Shown here in pieces: positions 459 to 60,762 of a stretch of 64,000 bases of DNA (the stretch's first letter is position 1; each line of letters begins with the position of its first letter). The notes under the pieces were generated by a model. It did not search any database. It saw only the letters and a program-made list of their open reading frames with translations, and was not told where the DNA came from. The position numbers and the translations under genes were made by a program. The stretch is from Planctomycetota bacterium (lineage in GTDB: Bacteria > Planctomycetota > MHYJ01 > JACQXL01): the NCBI GenBank assembly GCA_016235865.1, contig JACRIK010000027.1:90213-154212 (forward strand). The letters are read 5' to 3'.

Positions 459-518
459 TAGAGCCAGTTAGGAGCGTTAGCAACTTACTGGCTCTAATCC
501 CGCCTTAGCGGGATTAGA
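459..518 (-). repeat. Two-hairpin element, copy E1
   Basis: Hairpin A pairs TAGAGCCAGT (459-468) with ACTGGCTCTA (487-496). Hairpin B is an 11-bp stem, 493-503 with 508-518, around CTTA. The two stems share TCTA, so they are mutually exclusive at their edges. The sense strand is called minus by analogy with the copies that sit in front of ribosome binding sites. Here no gene starts next to it. A separate stem CCGCACC/GGTGCGG lies at 544-570. Confidence 0.7.
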
Positions 519-11332: not shown

Positions 11333-12685
11333 TCATCCTGTAATATCGGCATTAAGTTCTTTAGCCTTAAGCTTGAGGGCTTCGAATTCATTGAATCGCC
11401 GGCCGTGGTCGTGGCAGTAGTAAACGGATTTGTTATGCAGCAGCGGCTCGGCAAGAAGTTCCGGGTATTGAGTGAGTAATTTGACGAAGTCGGCGCTGCC
11501 CGGCACCGGAGAATACTGGGCCATTCTGACCTGCGCGCCGCAGCGATGAACAAATTCTATGGACCGGTCTATCTTGTCCAAGCCTTGGCCGGGCAGACCC
11601 ATCAGGACATAGACCCCGATATTCTCTGAGGTGAACCAGGCTTCTTTTAGATAGGCAATCACGGTGGCGAGTTGTTCGGGCGAGGCCTTAGGCTCGTCCA
11701 TACCCTCAAAACCCAGGCGGATGGTTTTGAAGTTTGCCTGATAGAGTTTTTGGGCCAGCGGTTTGTCAATATACCTGATATGCAGCCCGTTGGGCGTATG
11801 GAATCTCAGTTTCTTATTCAGCCCGCGCCGGATGATGCCGTCAAGGATAGGATGGATATGGGATTCGGTATTGACCAGCAGGGCGTCATCATAAAAGGCG
11901 ATGTCGGTTACACCCAGGTGGTTTAGGTAATGTTCTATCTCGTCAACCACTTCATCTGGCGGTCGCTGGGTGAAGTTGGCGTTAAGTGACGAAGATGCGC
12001 CCCGATTAAGTCGGGACTCCGCTCCGGCTGCGCAGTAAGAGCAGTTGAATGGGCACCCACGCGAGGTGAGCATGGCGATGCTCTGGGGATTGCTATATAA
12101 ATGGTAGGCGGGGTAATCAGTTGACTGGTGAGCTGTTAGATTGGGATGCGTAAGTTTGCGGGCGATATCGAGCATTGCCTCCTCGCCTAGCCCGGCAATG
12201 ACATAATCAGCGCCGGAATTCTTGAGCGCGTGTTCATAGCAAAGCGTGGCATAGACGCCACCCAGAACTACGGGCGTATCGGCAAAGACCTGCTTGATAT
12301 ATTTAATGGTTTCGGAAGCGCCCTGATGCCAGTAGGTCATCATAGAGGTCACGCCGATAAGAGTCGGCGGGTCATCGGGCGAGGTGTCGTCTATCGCCAT
12401 AAGCAGTTGCGTGAAGACCTCGGGCGGCATGCCGTATCTTTTATATTTACGCGGGATGTTTTGAAAATGGCAGGGCTTGGCGATTTCTTCGCTATGGAAT
12501 TTACTGCAGCCGTATGGCCTGGGTATGTTGTTGTAATTAAGGCAGTCAATCAATTGCACCTTGAAGCCGTGATTTTTCAGATGCGAGGCGATATAAAGCA
12601 GCCCCAAAGGCTTGAGCCATAAATCATAAGCCGAAAAATCGTGTATCCAGGGATTGACCAGGATTATTTTCTTAGGGTTTTCCAT
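11333..12685 (-). CDS. B12-binding-domain radical SAM protein
   Basis: This 450-residue protein has an N-terminal cobalamin-binding-type Rossmann domain (IILVNPW..PLGLLYIASHLK..G..V..ID, residues 1-170). It then has the radical SAM barrel with Cys211, Cys215 and Cys218 in the motif GCPFNCSYC, followed by VVDEIEHYL and IAFYDDALL. Enzymes of this class methylate or rearrange lipids, cofactors and natural products. The loop after the cluster is lengthened by AGAESRLNRG. It is encoded by the repeat GGAGTCCCGAC..ATCGGG (about 11996-12036), which also occurs between genes. It overlaps the next gene upstream by 22 bases. Confidence 0.88.
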   Translation of the reverse strand: MENPKKIILVNPWIHDFSAYDLWLKPLGLLYIASHLKNHGFKVQLIDCLNYNNIPRPYGCSKFHSEEIAKPCHFQNIPRKYKRYGMPPEVFTQLLMAIDDTSPDDPPTLIGVTSMMTYWHQGASETIKYIKQVFADTPVVLGGVYATLCYEHALKNSGADYVIAGLGEEAMLDIARKLTHPNLTAHQSTDYPAYHLYSNPQSIAMLTSRGCPFNCSYCAAGAESRLNRGASSSLNANFTQRPPDEVVDEIEHYLNHLGVTDIAFYDDALLVNTESHIHPILDGIIRRGLNKKLRFHTPNGLHIRYIDKPLAQKLYQANFKTIRLGFEGMDEPKASPEQLATVIAYLKEAWFTSENIGVYVLMGLPGQGLDKIDRSIEFVHRCGAQVRMAQYSPVPGSADFVKLLTQYPELLAEPLLHNKSVYYCHDHGRRFNEFEALKLKAKELNADITG

Positions 12686-24270: not shown

Positions 24271-25710
24271 TTACCCCTTAATTACTCCCAGTGGCTTGAA
24301 TCTTGCCACCTTTTTACTAATCCCGGCTATTTCCATCACCTCGACCACATCATTCACGTCCTTATAAGCCGCGGGCATTTCCTCGGCCAGCGCCTCGCGG
24401 CTCTTGGTCATGACCATCACGCCCAGTGATTCCATTTCCTTGAACAGATTTCGGCCCTGGCTTTTCCTGAGCATAGCCGAACGGCTGGCCACCCGGCCGG
24501 CGCCGTGGCAGGTGCTGCCGAAGGTATTCTTCATCGCCTCGTCAGTGCCCACGCACAGGAAGGAATTGCGTCCCATATCGCCCGGCACCAGGACCGGTTG
24601 TCCGATGGCCTGGTAATCCTTAGGCACGTCCGGATGATGGGGCGCAAAGGCCCGGGTGGCGCCCTTGCGGTGCACGCATAATTTCTTCTTTACTCCTCCT
24701 ACGTCATGCTCCTCTATCTTGGCGATATTGTGGCAGACGTCATAAATCAATTCTGCTCCGAGTTCCTTCGGGCCCATGTTGAGCGACTTCATCAGTGATT
24801 CCCTGACCAGGTGCATCATCACCTGGCGGTTGACCCAGGCGTAATTGGCCGCGCAGGCCATGGCTGCCAGATATTCCCGTCCTTCATCCGAATCCACTGG
24901 CGCGCAAGCCAGTTGCCGGTCGGGTAGATTAATCCCATATTTCTGCGCCGCCTTCAACAATTTACGCACATAATCGTCGCAGACCTGGTAGCCCAGGCCG
25001 CGCGAGCCGGAATGAATCTGAATTACAATCATATCCGGTTCCAGGCCGAAGACCCGAGCCATTTCCGGCCGGTATATCTCTACGACTTTATCTATTTCCA
25101 GGAAATGGTTGCCGGAGCCGAGCGTACCGACCTGGGGCAGTCCGCGTTTGATGGCCGTTTCGCTGACCATAGCCGGGTCAGCGTCCGGGATGACGCCATT
25201 GTCCTCGATATGGGTCAGGTCTTCCTTGTAACCGTAACCTTGGGTGATTGCCCATTTGGCGCCTTGAGTCAGGAGCCGGTGTTCCTTTTCGGGATTCAAT
25301 TTCGGGATGGCGCCGGCTGAACCTATGCCGGACGGAACCGCATAAAAGAGCGCTGAAAGAATTTCCTTAAGCCGTGGTTGGATATCCTTGACGAAGAGAT
25401 TGGTGCGCATCAGGCGCACGCCGCAGTTGATGTCATAGCCTACCCCGCCCGGGGAGATCACGCCGCCCTTGTCAATATCAAATGCCGCCACGCCGCCGAT
25501 AGGGAATCCGTAGCCCCAGTGGATGTCCGGCATGGCCAACGAATAATTGACAATCCCGGGCAGGCAGGCCACATTGGCTACCTGTTCCGGGCTCTTATCC
25601 TCGCCGACCGTTTCCATGAGTTTGCCTGATGCGTAGATCCGGCCCGGCACGTTCATGTTCCCGGATTGCGGTATCTCCCAGAGATAATCAGTAATTTTGT
25701 TGAGTTTCAT
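24271..25710 (-). CDS. rtcB: RNA 3'-phosphate/2',3'-cyclic phosphate ligase RtcB
   Basis: 479 residues from MKLNKITDYLW (25710). The 14 in-frame codons upstream are not part of the family. RtcB joins 2',3'-cyclic-phosphate or 3'-phosphate RNA ends to 5'-OH ends using GTP and Mn2+. Visible motifs are GFPIGGVAAFD, the metal cysteine in YDINCGVRL, GSGNHFLEID, IHSGSRGLGYQV, and HGAGRVASRSAM near the C-terminus, which holds the guanylylation region. The archease gene, its activating partner, lies about 2.1 kb away on the same strand, separated by an oppositely oriented lipoprotein gene. Confidence 0.96.
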   Translation of the reverse strand: MKLNKITDYLWEIPQSGNMNVPGRIYASGKLMETVGEDKSPEQVANVACLPGIVNYSLAMPDIHWGYGFPIGGVAAFDIDKGGVISPGGVGYDINCGVRLMRTNLFVKDIQPRLKEILSALFYAVPSGIGSAGAIPKLNPEKEHRLLTQGAKWAITQGYGYKEDLTHIEDNGVIPDADPAMVSETAIKRGLPQVGTLGSGNHFLEIDKVVEIYRPEMARVFGLEPDMIVIQIHSGSRGLGYQVCDDYVRKLLKAAQKYGINLPDRQLACAPVDSDEGREYLAAMACAANYAWVNRQVMMHLVRESLMKSLNMGPKELGAELIYDVCHNIAKIEEHDVGGVKKKLCVHRKGATRAFAPHHPDVPKDYQAIGQPVLVPGDMGRNSFLCVGTDEAMKNTFGSTCHGAGRVASRSAMLRKSQGRNLFKEMESLGVMVMTKSREALAEEMPAAYKDVNDVVEVMEIAGISKKVARFKPLGVIKG

Positions 25711-25758
25711 AGTGTTATTTATTATAATCGCTGTTATTAGAAAGTCAATCATATAATA

Positions 25759-27795: not shown

Positions 27796-28266
27796 CTACA
27801 CGTCAAACACCACTTCGGCAGTATAACCCGCTGTGGTTTTCTTTATGGCCAGATTGTGGAATGTCACGGCCTTAATCTCGGTCTTGATAACGTGGCGCTT
27901 GGGGTCGTAGGGCTGACCGGCGATTATTGCGGATAGAATTACGCGTTGAGCGTCATGTCCCGCTTTCAGCGGGATAAACTCCGAACGTTCTGCGTTACCG
28001 ACTTGGATATCCTGAATCTTTACCTTCGCCAGAAGATTATTCTCTATGGTGAATTCCCTTAAGAGCCTGCTCAGGAATTCATTGAGCAACTCCTCATTAT
28101 TAATTGCTTCGACGGAAATGGTCCGCTCAAAGTCCGGCTGCACCTTTTTAATGTCGCAGAGCAGGTCAAACAGGGCAAAGGCACCGTCCTCAAATATGCC
28201 TTTCAGTGTCTTGTTGCTCAGCCGGATGCCGATGTCAGCCGTGTGGTCGGTTAATTGGTAGCGCAT
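27796..28266 (-). CDS. Archease
   Basis: 156 residues starting MRYQLTDHTADIGIRL, the archease signature (DHTADIG). The family also shows GEPYDPxRH..KTEIKAVTFHNL, here GQPYDPKRHVIKTEIKAVTFHNL, and ends in a hydrophobic strand. Archease restores multiple turnover to RtcB. It is longer than usual (about 140) because of the segment GNAERSEFIPLKAGHDAQ. The DNA of that segment contains the palindrome TCCCGCTTTCAGCGGGA (27957-27975), the same kind of hairpin as the B arm of the dispersed two-hairpin elements. Upstream, 28275-28310 carries ATACAGGATACAG-type repeats, so the start is set at 28266. Confidence 0.93.
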   Translation of the reverse strand: MRYQLTDHTADIGIRLSNKTLKGIFEDGAFALFDLLCDIKKVQPDFERTISVEAINNEELLNEFLSRLLREFTIENNLLAKVKIQDIQVGNAERSEFIPLKAGHDAQRVILSAIIAGQPYDPKRHVIKTEIKAVTFHNLAIKKTTAGYTAEVVFDV

Positions 28267-28368
28267 ATTATAAGTATGCAGTATACAGGATACAGTATAC
28301 AGGTCAACAGAAAGAAAAACAATGGTTTTGGTTGACTTGCCGGATTTATAATTCATAATTAAATCAAT

Positions 28369-35690: not shown

Positions 35691-35692
35691 TC

Positions 35693-35761
35693 TTAGAGCC
35701 AGTTAGGAGTCTGCAAGGACGACCTTTACTGGCTCTTAGATCCCGGCAGTCTTTGCCGGGG
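35693..35761 (-). repeat. Two-hairpin element, copy E2
   Basis: AGAGCCAGT (35695-35703) pairs with ACTGGCTCT (35728-35736). CCCGGCA pairs with TGCCGGG (35742-35748, 35754-35760). The loop on the minus strand starts AAAGG and ends CTCCTAA. It separates the true end of the fibre gene from the duplicated fragment. Confidence 0.75.
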
Positions 35762-37710: not shown

Positions 37711-37769
37711 TTAGAGCCAGTAGAAGCATAGCGACGTACTGGCTCTTATCCCGATAGTTTTTATCGGGG
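37711..37769 (-). promoter_or_regulatory. Two-hairpin leader element E5
   Basis: Minus strand: CCCGATA/TATCGGG hairpin, ATAAG, AGAGCCAGTA/TACTGGCTCT enclosing CGTCGCTATGCTTC, then AAAAGGAGG of the seven-codon ORF. Arms are 37713-37722 and 37737-37746. Confidence 0.75.
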
Positions 37770-38140: not shown

Positions 38141-38205
38141 CTAGAGCCAGTAGGAATGAAATGACATACTGGCTCTTGTGCCAGCATGCATTAGCATGCA
38201 CTGGT
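38141..38205 (-). repeat. Two-hairpin element, copy E6
   Basis: AGAGCCAGTA (38143-38152) pairs with TACTGGCTCT (38167-38176). The neighbouring second hairpin has different bases (GCATGC..GCATGC within CCAG/CTGG) instead of CCCG/CGGG. No ribosome site follows. Confidence 0.65.
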
Positions 38206-38514: not shown

Positions 38515-38749
38515 ACCGCCTCCCCCATAATCAGGCCCCTTGTCAAGTTTTTATCAAAAACGCCTGATTTCTTCGGCTATCCTCTTATTTTCAGGAAGGT
38601 TAAAAAATTTTGGCCTATCCTCTTAACCGGCAGAAATTTAAGGCAAAAAACCGCTCTTTTCCGGTGAAACCCACCCAAAATCGCCATACCCAAATATTTT
38701 GTAAAAAATTTTTCGCCGGGGGTGTAGGAACCTGTGGCGGACAGGCTTA
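38515..38749. other. AT-rich spacer between regulator-like gene and 22-bp array
   Basis: A/T tracts (AAAAAATTTT, CCAAATATTTTGTAAAAAATT) and no gene. An AT-rich stretch beside direct repeats is the usual plan of an iteron-type origin, but no initiator gene is recognised here. Confidence 0.45.
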
Positions 38750-39057
38750 TTTTCGAATAGCTTGATGCCCCTTTTCGAATAGATTGATACCCCTTTTCGA
38801 ATGGACCGATACCCGTTTCCGAATAGCCCGATACCGGTTTTCGAATGGAGACGCTCTCCTTTTCGCGCAGGGATATCCCCGTTTTCGAATAGAGATACCA
38901 TCCTTTTCGCGTGGAGGTATACCCGTTTTCGAATGGAGATATCCTCCTTTTCGCGCAGGGGTATCCCCGTTTTCGAATGGCGATATCCTCCTTTTCGAAT
39001 GGCCATACCCCCCTTTTCGAATGGCTCTATCCCCGTTTCCGAATGGCGACATCCTTT
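38750..39057. repeat. Tandem array, 14 units of exactly 22 bp
   Basis: Units start at 38750 and then every 22 bases to 39036. The consensus is TTTTCGAATGGNGATATCCCCS. Positions 1-5 are nearly invariant (TTTTC, TTTCC in units 4 and 14). Positions 7-11 vary between AATGG, AATAG, GCAGG-like and GTGG-like. The centre GGNGATATCC is close to palindromic. There are no spacers, so this is not CRISPR. 22 is not divisible by three, so open frames through the array shift register each unit. Confidence 0.95.
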
Positions 39058-39335
39058 ATGTGGCTGGAGGGGGTAGGGGTGTAGGTAACCCCCCCCTGTA
39101 AAAGTGACAATTTTTGTCGCTTTGAGCATCCCTGTGCGAAGCACTGGTCGGCTCAGCATGGCGTCAAGCCAGCGCACCGGGCCCTTTGCAAAGCAATGGT
39201 CGGGAGCACGCCAAAGGCGGCGCACCGGGAGGCACTCTCTACGTCCCCTGTATTCCGTATATTTACTTATATCTTATCACTTATAACTTATAACTTTCAA
39301 GGGGGATGGCTACTATATATGAAGACCGGATGGCC
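39058..39335. other. Spacer with two CCCTGTGC-type repeats
   Basis: G-rich stretch (39064-39097), the inverted repeat AGTGACAA/TTGTCGCT (39103-39121), then two adjacent copies of the CCCTKTGCRAAGCA..GCGCACCGGG repeat (39130-39181 and 39182-39230). No gene. Confidence 0.6.
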
Positions 39336-43115: not shown

Positions 43116-43673
43116 AGCTTCTTAATCCTACCATTTCCTTTAGATTTGAGCAAGTATTATTTCCGGTTGGGCGGGAGGGTTACTTATTCTCCTGGGACAC
43201 CCTTCGGCTTCGCTCCCCGCTGGGGCGGGACTCCGCTGTCACTACGCAGGGCAGGCACACCTAACCCTACATCCCTTTATCTATGCGCCTGTACCCTCCT
43301 CGTGGGACACACACCTCGCCAGGAAACCCTTTATCTGCGCGGACTTGAGGGCACAGTTTGTTGACCTGCGTGCCCCGAATGCTTTCGGGGTACTCGGAGT
43401 CACGCTAACGCTTAGAGCCCGGGTACGCTTTAGCCACTGGCTAAATGCTGACCGATGGCGCCGAAGCGCCATGGCGCCCTTATGGCGCTCACCAGTGCTT
43501 TGCACAGGGCGCGGACGCTGTTTTATAGATTCGCTAAGTTTACCCTGTCCGATGGACTCTCCGATGCTGCCGGATACGGAGTCCGATTCACATCGGACCG
43601 AAGAGTCATACGGACTCCTTCGGAGAGTATTCCGAAGGGGTTGACTACAAGCTCAAACGCCCGTTTCTTGATG
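43116..43673. other. 558-bp repeat-rich spacer, no gene
   Basis: Holds GCGGGACTCCGCTGTCACTA (43225-43244), the same repeat as in frame in two genes (12 kb and 51 kb), a GGGACACACACC..CTTTATCTGCGCGG copy (43300-43340), a reverse CCCTGTGC copy with GGCGC stems (43450-43513), and a palindromic ATCGGACC..GGAGTCCG block (43560-43630). Open frames across it are low-complexity shadows. Confidence 0.6.
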
Positions 43674-50646: not shown

Positions 50647-52230
50647 CTATGGCAGCGCGGCCGGGTTTAATATAATCACCCCGCTGTTAATCAGGTTGCT
50701 GATGATAATGGCAATGCCGATAAGGGTAATCAGGACCGGGCTTAAGACGGAAAGGATTCGGATGACCCGGGTAAGGTCAATATGTTTGGATGAACTCAGG
50801 AACGAAACCCCGGTGACCATCAGGATTCCGATAGTAATAAGAACCGATGCCAGGCCGAGCGAGAAGGCCAGTATCAGGAATAAGCCCCAGAGCGTTTTCT
50901 TGATGGTAATGGCCATGAGCAGGATGACGATGGCGGTCGGGCAGGGCACCAGCCCGCCGCTGATGCCTAAGGCGAGTATCTGTTTGAGCGAGACCGTTTC
51001 CAGGGATGATGTGGCAACGGAATGAGAGTGGCCATGCGCGTGACCCTCGTCGCCCGGATGATGGCTGTGGCTATGCGCGTGACCCTCGTCATCCGAATGG
51101 TTGTGCGCTTCACCGAGGTGATGAGTATGTCCATGGTTGCCAAGAGGATTGGTCCCCGATTGGGTCGGGACTCCGCTGTCGCTTCGCAGTCGTCTGGAGA
51201 AAATCCAGACGCCCATAATAATCATTATCAGTCCGGAGACCATGCCCAGATAAACCGCCAGGGCGGTCTGGTTGACATAGTACGAGGCGGTCAAGGCTAG
51301 GACGCCGGCGATAATGACGGTGGACAAATGTGTGGTGGTTACAATCAATCCCAGCAGGATGGCCTGGGAAATTGTTCCGCGGCTGCCGATCAGGTATGCG
51401 CCGACCAAGGTCTTGCCGTGCCCGGGCGCCAAGGCGTGAACCGCGCCGTAGATAAAGGCAAATCCCAGGCCGGCCAGGATTATCCAGAATGACAATGATT
51501 CGCTGTTGAGCGAATCCAGCATTTTCTCTTTGCCGGTATTCGAGCCGACGATAGTTGCCGGCCGGTCAAACCTGGCCGGGCCGGTTCCGGTATTTTCGTA
51601 ATTTAACCGCATGTAATTATATTCCCGCGGCTTTAACCAGAATCCGGATTTGAACATGAGCGACCGGCTGCGCTGTTCGGGCGTATAAGGGATATTTATT
51701 CCTTCGCCCTGGGCAAAGAACGCCTTGATCAGGACCGGCTTGGGCAGGGTATTGGTCATCCAGAAATCCAACGTATGTTTCTGCCCGGCCTGGAACCGGA
51801 GCGTATCGGACAGCCCCAGGCGTTCCAGGTCGAGCAGGAACTCGAAATTTATCTTGATCGGCACCGGCGCATTTTTGGTATTGGTCACCAGCATCCGGGA
51901 GCTGTATAAAGCGAAAGACAGGTCGGCCCGGTCGTCGATGACTATCCTTAATCCGCCGGAGCTGATATCCTTCTGGAGTTTATCCAGGAACAGTTCGTTT
52001 TCCTCGTCTGAAATCTCGCCGTTCTTGTCCGTATCAATCAAGGGCCGGAAATCAGGAGCTTCCAGATCGCCCACGGCAATCCAGTAATCCAGATAAATCA
52101 AGTCCGGCCAGATGCCCAGTTCCATGGAGGTGTTGATGGATTCCACCTGGCGGTCCGTCAGGTCGTGGGCATAGATGGGCGATGCGATTATGGCAAACAG
52201 CAGGATGAGCGGCAGTAAAGAGCGTTTCAT
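50647..52230 (-). CDS. NicO-type nickel/cobalt exporter with EF-hand and His-rich loop
   Basis: About 527 residues from MKRSLLPLILLF (52230). There is a signal peptide. A periplasmic domain includes an EF-hand DTDKNGEISDEE (near residue 70). Then come six or more helices of the NicO/UreH/RcnA family: VHALAPGHGKTLVGAYLIG and ISGGLVPCPTAIVILLMAI, with metal-site His residues. Between helices is a His-rich loop (about 370-415) full of GHAHSHSH. The lead-in to this loop, RRLRSDSGVPTQSG, is encoded by the repeat GACAGCGGAGTCCCGAC..TCGGGG (about 51155-51195), also present between genes. It probably exports divalent cations. Confidence 0.88.
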   Translation of the reverse strand: MKRSLLPLILLFAIIASPIYAHDLTDRQVESINTSMELGIWPDLIYLDYWIAVGDLEAPDFRPLIDTDKNGEISDEENELFLDKLQKDISSGGLRIVIDDRADLSFALYSSRMLVTNTKNAPVPIKINFEFLLDLERLGLSDTLRFQAGQKHTLDFWMTNTLPKPVLIKAFFAQGEGINIPYTPEQRSRSLMFKSGFWLKPREYNYMRLNYENTGTGPARFDRPATIVGSNTGKEKMLDSLNSESLSFWIILAGLGFAFIYGAVHALAPGHGKTLVGAYLIGSRGTISQAILLGLIVTTTHLSTVIIAGVLALTASYYVNQTALAVYLGMVSGLIMIIMGVWIFSRRLRSDSGVPTQSGTNPLGNHGHTHHLGEAHNHSDDEGHAHSHSHHPGDEGHAHGHSHSVATSSLETVSLKQILALGISGGLVPCPTAIVILLMAITIKKTLWGLFLILAFSLGLASVLITIGILMVTGVSFLSSSKHIDLTRVIRILSVLSPVLITLIGIAIIISNLINSGVIILNPAALP

Positions 52231-58119: not shown

Positions 58120-60762
58120 ATGACCGACGAACCCAAAGGGACCGCGTCCAGCGAACCGCAAGTGCCGCAGACTGCCGCCAGCCAGACCGAGAAGATAGGC
58201 GATTTCGAGATATTCAAGGACCAGCTCCTGGGCAAGGGCGCCTGGGGCGAGGTCTACCGCGGACGCCAGGTCTCCCTGGAACGGCCGGTGGCCGTCAAGA
58301 TCCTCAAGAAGGAATTGTCCTCGGACGAGGAATTCGTCCGCCGGTTCATGCGCGAGGCCAAGTGTATCGCCCAGCTCATCGACGAAAACATCATCCAGGT
58401 CTACGGCGCCGGGGTGCACGAAGGCGCCTACTACTTCGCCATGGAATTCGTCCAGGGTCTGCCGCTCCAGAAATTCCTGGACCGGGGCCGGAAATTCTCC
58501 ACTGACGACATCATCTACATCGCCATGGCTGTGGCCAAGGCCTTGAAGGCCGCCTGGGAAAGTCCGGAACAGGTGGTCCACCGCGATATCAAACCGTCCA
58601 ATGTAATGATATCATTTTCCAGCTCGCTTATCGCCTCCAGCCGCAAGCCCGAGACCAGCGACAGCATTGCCTTTGTGGACGTCAATATCAACGAAGCCAA
58701 GGTCAAGGTCATGGACTTCGGACTGGCCAAGGTGGCCTCGTCATCGGCCGGCAAGGACGCGACCATGGTCGGCACCATCATCGGCACGCCCAAGTATATC
58801 TCGCCCGAACAGGGACTGGGCAACCCGGCCGATATCCGCTCCGACATCTATTCGCTCGGCATCGTGATGTATGAACTGGCCACCGGCCGGATTCCCTTCA
58901 CCAGCGACAGCGCGGTCAGCCTGGTGCGCCATCATATCTATGACACGGCTATTCCGCCCAGACAGATTAATCCCGATATGTCCGAGGATTTGGAAACCGT
59001 CATCATGAAATGCATCCAGAAGGACCCGAATCACCGCTACGGCAATCCCGGTGAGATGCTGGAGGATTTAGAAGCGTTGCGTCGGGCCACCAAGCCCCTG
59101 TACGCCACCCAGACCATGGCCAATATCGGCGCCACCATGCTGGCCCGGCCCCAGGGCGCCAAGGGCAGCAAAACCGGCCTGATTATCGGCGGTGTGGTGG
59201 TTGCGGCGGTTGCGGCCGTGGCCGGCATATACTTCGCCACCCGGCCGGCCAAGGAAAACAAGCCCGATATGCCCACTATTATCCAGCCGCCGGCCAACAA
59301 CACGGTGGAACTCCGCAGAGACCGCGATAGCGAACAGCCGGCCAGCGGCACCGATACCTCGATGCCGATTATCAGCCAGCCGATTACCCCGACCGAAGAC
59401 CCGGCCCAGAAACTCAACCAGCTCTGCTCGATGATAGAGCAGTATATCAATTACGGCACCATCCCGAGCCTGGACGAGGCCGGCCAGCTCCTGGCCAAGG
59501 CCAAGGCCATCGACAGCGCCAATGAAAAGGTCAAGCAGCTCGACCTGCTCTGGCAGCAGAAAAAGGACGAGGTCCTTAAAGAGGAAGACCGCAAGAAGCG
59601 CGAGGAGAATTACCAGAAATATATGTCCATGGGCAATGAGGCCAAGGCCAAGAAGGACTGGAAATCAGCCCTGCAATCATTCTCGGACGCCCAGGCCATC
59701 AACTCCACCGTCTCGGTCACCGAGGAGATAGAATCCGTCCGGGCCAACGTCAGGAAGATAGAAGACTACGACGCCCTGCTGGAAAAGGCCCATCAATACG
59801 AGGACAGCGAGAAGTATGACGAGGCCGTAACCGAATACAAGAAACTGATGGAACTTTTTCCCAAAGTTAAGGACCTGTACCAGAAAGAACCGACCCCGCC
59901 CCGGGAATACATCCAGAAATGCGAAGAGCGGCTGAAGAACCGGGACTTTACTAAACTGATTAACGAAGGCGAGGAGCTGCTCAGGCAGAAGAAATACACC
60001 TCGGCCGAAAAGATGTTAAAGCTGGCCCGTGAGGTCAGGCCCTCGGATCAGGGCATTGCCGACAAACTGGCCGAGGTAAGAAAAGCCATTCCGGCCAATA
60101 TGGCCTTTGTGGAAGAGGGCGCCTTTATGATGGGCGAAAAAGGCAAGACCGAAAAAGAGGTCATGGTCCAGTCCTTCTTCGTGGATATATACGAGGTCAC
60201 CAACAAGGAATACAAGGAATTCTACGACGCGGTCAAGTCCGGCAACCATGACAAATGCCACCGGGACGAGGAGCCGAAGAAGAAGAAAACACCCGAGATA
60301 CGCAAGCACCAGCCGGAATTCTGGAAAGACGGCAACTACGGCAAATCTGAGGGCGACCTGCCGGTAGTGGGCATAGACTGGTATGACGCCTATGCCTATG
60401 CCTCCTGGTCCGGCAAGCGTCTGCTGACTTCAATCGAATGGGAAAAAGCCGCCCGCGGCCTGGACGGCAGAATCTATCCGGGCGGCTGGAAAGAGAAGAG
60501 CGAAATCAAGGCCAATGTCAAGGGATTAGGACCCAGCGGCCTGACCGCCATCGGGTTCTTCGTGCCGGACGCCAGCCCGTTCGGATGCTATGACATGACC
60601 GGCAACGCCGGAGAATGGACGGCCGACGCCGGCAAGATTGGATTCATCGTCCGGGGCGGCAACTGGGCGTCGTCGCCGGTGCAGGTTTACAAAACCGACG
60701 ACTCGCTCTGGCATACCCGGGTCAATTACCTCGGGTTAAGATGCGCCAAAACAGTAAAATAA
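58120..60762 (+). CDS. Ser/Thr kinase fused to formylglycine-generating-enzyme-like domain
   Basis: 880 residues. The kinase domain (about 30-330) has GKGAWGEVY, Lys60, H154RD156IKPSN and D199FG. The segment between HRD-N and DFG is about 25 residues longer than usual (FSSSLIASSRKPETSDSIAF). One membrane helix lies at 352-375. Then come Pro/Ser linkers, TPR-like helical repeats (about 450-650), and a SUMF1/FGE-sulfatase C-terminal domain (658-878: AFMMGEKGKTEKE, VTNKEYKEFYD, DLPVVGIDWYDAYAYASWSGKRL, CYDMTGNAGEWT, VRGGNWAS). In this family layout the FGE domain is often catalytically silent. The linker VELRRDRDSEQPASG is encoded by the CGCAGAGACCGCGATAGCGAA repeat. Confidence 0.92.
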   Translation: MTDEPKGTASSEPQVPQTAASQTEKIGDFEIFKDQLLGKGAWGEVYRGRQVSLERPVAVKILKKELSSDEEFVRRFMREAKCIAQLIDENIIQVYGAGVHEGAYYFAMEFVQGLPLQKFLDRGRKFSTDDIIYIAMAVAKALKAAWESPEQVVHRDIKPSNVMISFSSSLIASSRKPETSDSIAFVDVNINEAKVKVMDFGLAKVASSSAGKDATMVGTIIGTPKYISPEQGLGNPADIRSDIYSLGIVMYELATGRIPFTSDSAVSLVRHHIYDTAIPPRQINPDMSEDLETVIMKCIQKDPNHRYGNPGEMLEDLEALRRATKPLYATQTMANIGATMLARPQGAKGSKTGLIIGGVVVAAVAAVAGIYFATRPAKENKPDMPTIIQPPANNTVELRRDRDSEQPASGTDTSMPIISQPITPTEDPAQKLNQLCSMIEQYINYGTIPSLDEAGQLLAKAKAIDSANEKVKQLDLLWQQKKDEVLKEEDRKKREENYQKYMSMGNEAKAKKDWKSALQSFSDAQAINSTVSVTEEIESVRANVRKIEDYDALLEKAHQYEDSEKYDEAVTEYKKLMELFPKVKDLYQKEPTPPREYIQKCEERLKNRDFTKLINEGEELLRQKKYTSAEKMLKLAREVRPSDQGIADKLAEVRKAIPANMAFVEEGAFMMGEKGKTEKEVMVQSFFVDIYEVTNKEYKEFYDAVKSGNHDKCHRDEEPKKKKTPEIRKHQPEFWKDGNYGKSEGDLPVVGIDWYDAYAYASWSGKRLLTSIEWEKAARGLDGRIYPGGWKEKSEIKANVKGLGPSGLTAIGFFVPDASPFGCYDMTGNAGEWTADAGKIGFIVRGGNWASSPVQVYKTDDSLWHTRVNYLGLRCAKTVK

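Follow-up and report, generated by a model that had tools for sequence, protein, structure and literature searches.

A probable in-frame insertion of a dispersed palindromic repeat in the archease gene of a Planctomycetota bacterium

Results

The archease gene and its RtcB partner

The window, a stretch of 64,000 nucleotides from a Planctomycetota bacterium (contig JACRIK010000027.1, positions 90,213 to 154,212), carries an archease gene on the minus strand at 27796–28266, which starts with ATG at 28266, encodes 156 residues and lies in the frame of the open reading frame 27796–28356. Archease is a helper that activates the RNA ligase RtcB. The gene for this partner enzyme (24271–25752, minus strand; PF01139, E=8.9e-172) is located 2 kb from the archease gene on the same strand, the PF01139 match extending over contig positions 114486–115796, which correspond to window positions 24274–25584. 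The window protein is an archease by profile, by its conserved metal and phosphate ligands and by fold. Its 156 residues match the 136 positions of the Pfam profile PF01951 with E=3.4e-34, the predicted structure is matched by Foldseek to the archease 4n2p (E=3e-12) and also to 8odo, and the invariant archease residues H8, T9, D11, H125, K132, V134, T135, H137 and D155 are all kept. Human archease displays D51, K156 and D178 at its conserved tip (PMC10944509), and the alignment suggests that D11, K132 and D155 are their counterparts.

An extra segment relative to other archeases

The window archease is longer than its homologues by 15–18 residues at a single place. The comparison included 28 archeases from other genomes of the phylum, 27 of which span the site, L033 ending before it. 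The phylum is probably Planctomycetota, as suggested by a planctomycete-type family (PF07596) with 36 copies in one of its genomes and none in 14 control genomes. The insert is absent in 26 of the 27 proteins that span the site, which have no more than about six additional residues at this point, and the solved archeases of Pyrococcus, Methanothermobacter and human are also without it. The exception, G002, belongs to the same family as the window's genome and displays a different extension of about 18 residues in the same loop, while G001 and G004 have a few extra residues. The G002 extension was considered as a decayed copy of the repeat described below and rejected, since the repeat profile finds no match there, although a 5-bp stem (ATCCC-TCAC-GGGAT) is present. 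Thus, the loop can lengthen in other ways too, as the unrelated extension of G002 indicates. The archease site is tolerant of insertions, and the repeat was taken up there in the window's genome. The empty site is seen at 40–61% protein identity in the nearest relatives searched, none of which is of the same genus, a distance at which the exact ends of the insert and any target duplication cannot be fixed.

The AlphaFold model of the archease, built from an alignment of 29 archeases, has a mean pLDDT of 93.8, with low confidence just at residues 91–107. These residues form an unstructured loop that caps a β-hairpin made of strands 77–90 and 108–119. The topology of the model, rather than its coordinates, suggests that the insert is positioned at the end of strand 108–119 far from the conserved tip with KRH..TEIKAV. 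An earlier sequence-only reading had described the segment as extra relative to the family norm and had proposed, as a check, that it should sit on a surface loop and be missing in close relatives and, as grounds for abandoning the idea, that its residues might prove ancestral by recurring in distant phyla. Both expectations agree with the model and with the alignment, and no archease compared shares the residues of the insert.

The inserted DNA resembles copies elsewhere in the genome

The DNA of the insert (27944–27997, minus strand) encodes residues 90–108 (GNAERSEFIPLKAGHDAQR) in frame, which fits the size of the 15–18-residue insertion, and contains a 54-nt repeat, termed B, of approximate sequence ACGYTCGGAGTTTATCCCGCnnnnGCGGGACnnnACGCT. 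The core of the repeat is a hairpin (TCCCGCTGAAAGCGGGA, 27958–27974, minus strand) with a 7-bp stem and a 3-nt loop. The palindrome TCCCGCTTTCAGCGGGA noticed by the sequence-only reading at this place, inside a minus-strand reading frame and preceded in sense by GTTTA, is borne out, but the length assigned to it was too short, as homology spans the full 54 nt.

The first evidence for B came from two distant matches to the archease copy in the same genome, in aroB and speB. As these and the other initial matches had been selected for their resemblance to the archease copy, a profile that omits archease was built from aroB and from L228 and L229, which have the closest flanks. The two latter loci are among four further copies retrieved with no criterion other than the core pattern GGAGTTTATCCCG-N3-8-CGGG; some bias remains in this profile, its seeds having been picked by flank. 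Over 844 kb of the genome, taken in stretches for both the profile and the simulation described below, the archease-free profile recovers the archease copy over model positions 2–55 with E=9.9e-10, followed by speB with E=1.5e-8. The strength of this match leaves little doubt that the archease DNA is a repeat copy. The flanks of the archease copy are common to the intergenic copies L228 and L229.

The core pattern GGAGTTTATCCCG-N3-8-CGGG occurs ten times in the genome and never when read backwards, and a looser form of the core was observed five times in the 844 kb, where 20 simulated genomes gave 0.1 on average. The core also occurs in other members of the order, in five or six of the eight genomes, again with no reversed occurrence. 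Most B copies are intergenic. Copies at unrelated places match over their full length, and B is a dispersed repeat family. When the insert peptide was recoded with synonymous codons at the usage of the genome, a comparable hairpin arose in 13 of 2000 sequences (0.65%), and the palindrome is therefore unlikely to result from codon choice. On the leave-one-out match and the recoding test, codon coincidence was rejected as its source. No RNA family was matched at the archease locus, two tRNAs being the only matches within the window.

A sister repeat, A, in the window, the genome and the order

A search for relatives of B led to a second and stronger family, A, with the 37-nt consensus TGCGnAGyCGCArCGGAGTCCCGAtwAttTCGGGG, which forms two hairpins. 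A and B have in common the layout of a CGGAGT(TTAT)-CCCG hairpin. The archease copy was considered as a member of A and rejected, the A model missing it even at E=10, and for this reason B is kept apart from A. The window contains three A copies on the minus strand. The first (11999–12035; model R1, 48.6 bits, E=2e-13) is an in-frame part of the gene for a B12-binding/radical SAM protein, directly after the CxxxCxxC motif, with coding sequence on both sides and a host protein that matches radical SAM families. The second (51153–51189; R1, 45.9 bits, E=1.4e-12) lies inside the open reading frame 50647–52230, whose product is a membrane protein with a His-rich loop and probably a metal transporter. 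The third (43214–43249; R1, 34.8 bits, E=4.5e-9) lies between genes. In addition, a third repeat family is represented by a copy (GGAACTCCGCAGAGACCGCGATAGCGAACA, 59303–59336, plus strand) inside the open reading frame 58120–60762. Seven in-frame cases had been counted in the window by the sequence-only reading; support was obtained for four, namely the archease copy, the A copies at 11999–12035 and 51153–51189 and the third-family copy at 59308–59334.

A covariance model finds 67 A copies in the genome. Among the genomes searched, each of the eight others from the order also contains A (5, 16, 134, 10, 33, 6, 21 and 48 copies), and 21 genomes beyond the order give none or one weak match each. 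No match was found between the A repeat and viral, plasmid or phage sequences. Of 62 copies with flanking DNA, 18 lie inside genes, in an open frame flanked on either side by coding signal. The true number is probably higher, as the protease and transporter copies did not reach the coding threshold. Thirteen of the intragenic copies are in sense orientation, distributed over the three phases as 5/4/4, and five are antisense. The A consensus is free of stop codons in every sense frame and, depending on the variant, in two or three of the antisense frames as well. The share of A copies in genes, about 29% or somewhat more, compares with a coding share of about 83–85% of the sequence read, which fits the removal of harmful insertions. 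The genome with 134 copies (G003, L184–L203) displays a variant of A whose hairpin loop is longer (CCCGACCGNAGCGTCGGG), and many of its copies are apparently in genes, for example in a CinA-like gene. At about position 1500 of locus L226 in G008, a gene contains several B/A-like units in a row and in frame (RSDSPAGSGINSVPTQSGRSDKPAPPSRDGINSVPPQSG), which indicates that a single site can accumulate several insertions.

Inserts in other conserved genes

PyrD (C3:290260–291201) carries 21 extra residues right after NISCPN(V/I), at a site that is empty in eight relatives. The insert includes 13-bp outer arms (ATCCAGCCCCTGC/GCAGGGGCTGGAT), which are like the CCCAGC...GCTGGG sequences around copies in DacB, beside the start of thymidylate kinase and elsewhere. 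Similarly, SpeB has 24 extra residues composed of a B copy and another module, and none of eight relatives compared has a comparable insert. Further hosts, identified by motif and unaligned, include NadC-like, MtaB-like and YgiQ-like proteins and, in G003, the CinA-like protein. AroB also contains a B element, but its loop varies and the net gain is 6–8 residues, so that AroB was set aside as a clean second B insertion. The archease gene adjoins aroB in G002 (C251), and in the window's genome the two genes, both with a B repeat, are about 62 kb apart.

Transposase genes and unrelated repeats

No transposase linked to A or B was found. Two related Y1 (RAYT-like) genes, at G000:C27:246341 and C33:268 (L075 and L076), lie in similar units flanked by GGGGACAGACC, and at the C33 locus several copies of the 3′ end follow one another in a row. 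The Y1 transposases were rejected as the mover of A and B, their flanks being these other repeats (GGGGACAGACC). Outside the called genes, a 22-nt unit (CCTTTTCGAATGG...) forms a tandem array at window positions 38728–39072, with at least 12 copies in overlapping register. An inverted pair, TAGAGCCAGT...ACTGGCTCTTA, occurs at window positions 459–497, 35691–35738, 37711–37751 and 38142–38182, often beside a CCCG hairpin; ACTGGCTCTTA has 11 copies in the 844 kb, none of them in genes, which sets it apart from the A, B and C repeats.

Discussion

Insertions of palindromes in frame are known above all from Rickettsia and are often attributed to weak selection in intracellular parasites. The observations at the archease locus are very probably explained by a short dispersed palindromic repeat, apparently non-autonomous, that was inserted in the gene after its lineage had split from the nearest sequenced relatives, presumably by transposition. 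The repeat is predicted to be translated, because the insertion is a multiple of three and free of stop codons in the frame used, and would form a hydrophilic loop of 18 residues at the tip of the β-hairpin. As the strand would keep this loop at a distance from the residues that extend into RtcB, archease should still work, and the copy would thus be tolerated or nearly neutral. More generally, the repeats may land anywhere, across the genome and the order, selection leaving intergenic copies and those in-frame copies that fall in tolerant loops.

It is unlikely that the repeats are retained for a host function, for instance as hairpins that protect mRNA or cause pausing, with the intragenic copies being by-products or useful peptide tags. 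Order-wide retention, copy numbers of up to 134 (G003), the hairpins themselves and the many intergenic copies would fit such a role, but none of the archease, PyrD and SpeB sites was found to be shared between genera, and the inserts would have no peptide-level function in common because their peptides differ by frame. There is far less to be said for the archease loop as a variable β-hairpin grown by ordinary insertions and deletions, its palindrome being a coincidence of codons. The differing loop lengths of relatives, with about 18 unrelated residues in G002 and a few in G001 and G004, speak in its favour, whereas the whole-length match of the 54-nt stretch to copies outside the archease gene (E=9.9e-10 with archease omitted) and the hairpin frequency of 0.65% among synonymous recodings speak against it. 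Very improbable as well is that the insert is spliced from the mRNA or skipped in translation, the palindrome acting as a signal and a normal archease resulting: the host gene encodes an RNA ligase cofactor and the element folds as a hairpin, but every frame used is open and a multiple of three, the elements lie in three frames and on both strands of many genes, as expected of tolerated translated inserts rather than of excised ones, and no known self-splicing RNA family is found at the locus.

The insertion of a dispersed repeat in archease has close parallels. Rickettsia palindromic elements (RPE) are short palindromes that are found between genes and also in frame in conserved genes, in which case they are translated (PMC3733652). 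Intragenic GTAG/CGTC REPs are stem-loops of 20–40 nt with many copies, some lying wholly within reading frames of known proteins (PMC3733652), and are found in several phyla, including the PVC bacterium Opitutus terrae (Di Nocera et al. 2013, PMC3733652). The archease insert resembles RPE insertions in being absent from homologues, in frame and at a tolerant surface site. Like RPE-1, RPE-4 and RPE-6, the A and B repeats are short, palindromic and present in spacers as well as in frame within conserved genes; in contrast to RPE, they have different sequences, an A core of two hairpins and a host that belongs to an uncultured, probably planctomycete order. The likeness to Rickettsia palindromic elements proposed by the sequence-only reading thus stands as an analogy but not as membership of that family, given that the CGTC tag of RPE-4, RPE-6 and the CGTC REPs was not recognised at the ends of the A consensus or of the B copies. 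In the A core, GNAG is located inside the loop of hairpin 1, with T at the variable position in only two of 18 copies, and A is therefore not a GTAG REP. With both tags missing, A and B are filed neither under RPE nor under GTAG/CGTC REPs.

A and B copies lie partly inside reading frames, as intragenic REPs do, but the Y1 genes of this genome are not flanked by them, nor do A or B flank a RAYT gene in the way that defines RAYT-associated repeats. Similarly to prokaryotic MITEs such as NEMIS, RUP and ERIC, they are non-coding, palindromic and presumably moved in trans; in contrast to MITEs, they are shorter than 70 nt, and neither constant terminal inverted repeats nor target duplications were established for them. 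No earlier description of the A or B repeats was found in the open-licence papers searched. By analogy, their mode of action would be that of Rickettsia palindromic elements and intragenic REPs, in a different family of repeats.

It is conceivable, if still somewhat doubtful, that at least two palindromic families with all sense frames open are a continuing source of new loops in an order of uncultured bacteria, in archease, PyrD, SpeB, the NadC-, MtaB- and CinA-like proteins and others, on a scale comparable to or greater than that in Rickettsia. The repeats described here would represent a new, order-wide example of a known process, with different repeats in conserved enzymes such as PyrD, archease and SpeB, in a host lineage that is separate from Rickettsia and, with a genome of 2.7 Mb, is not an obvious reduced parasite. 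The many natural insertion sites may show which protein loops tolerate new peptides, and a set of genomes with 5 to 134 A copies each could allow the spread of the repeats and their mover to be traced.
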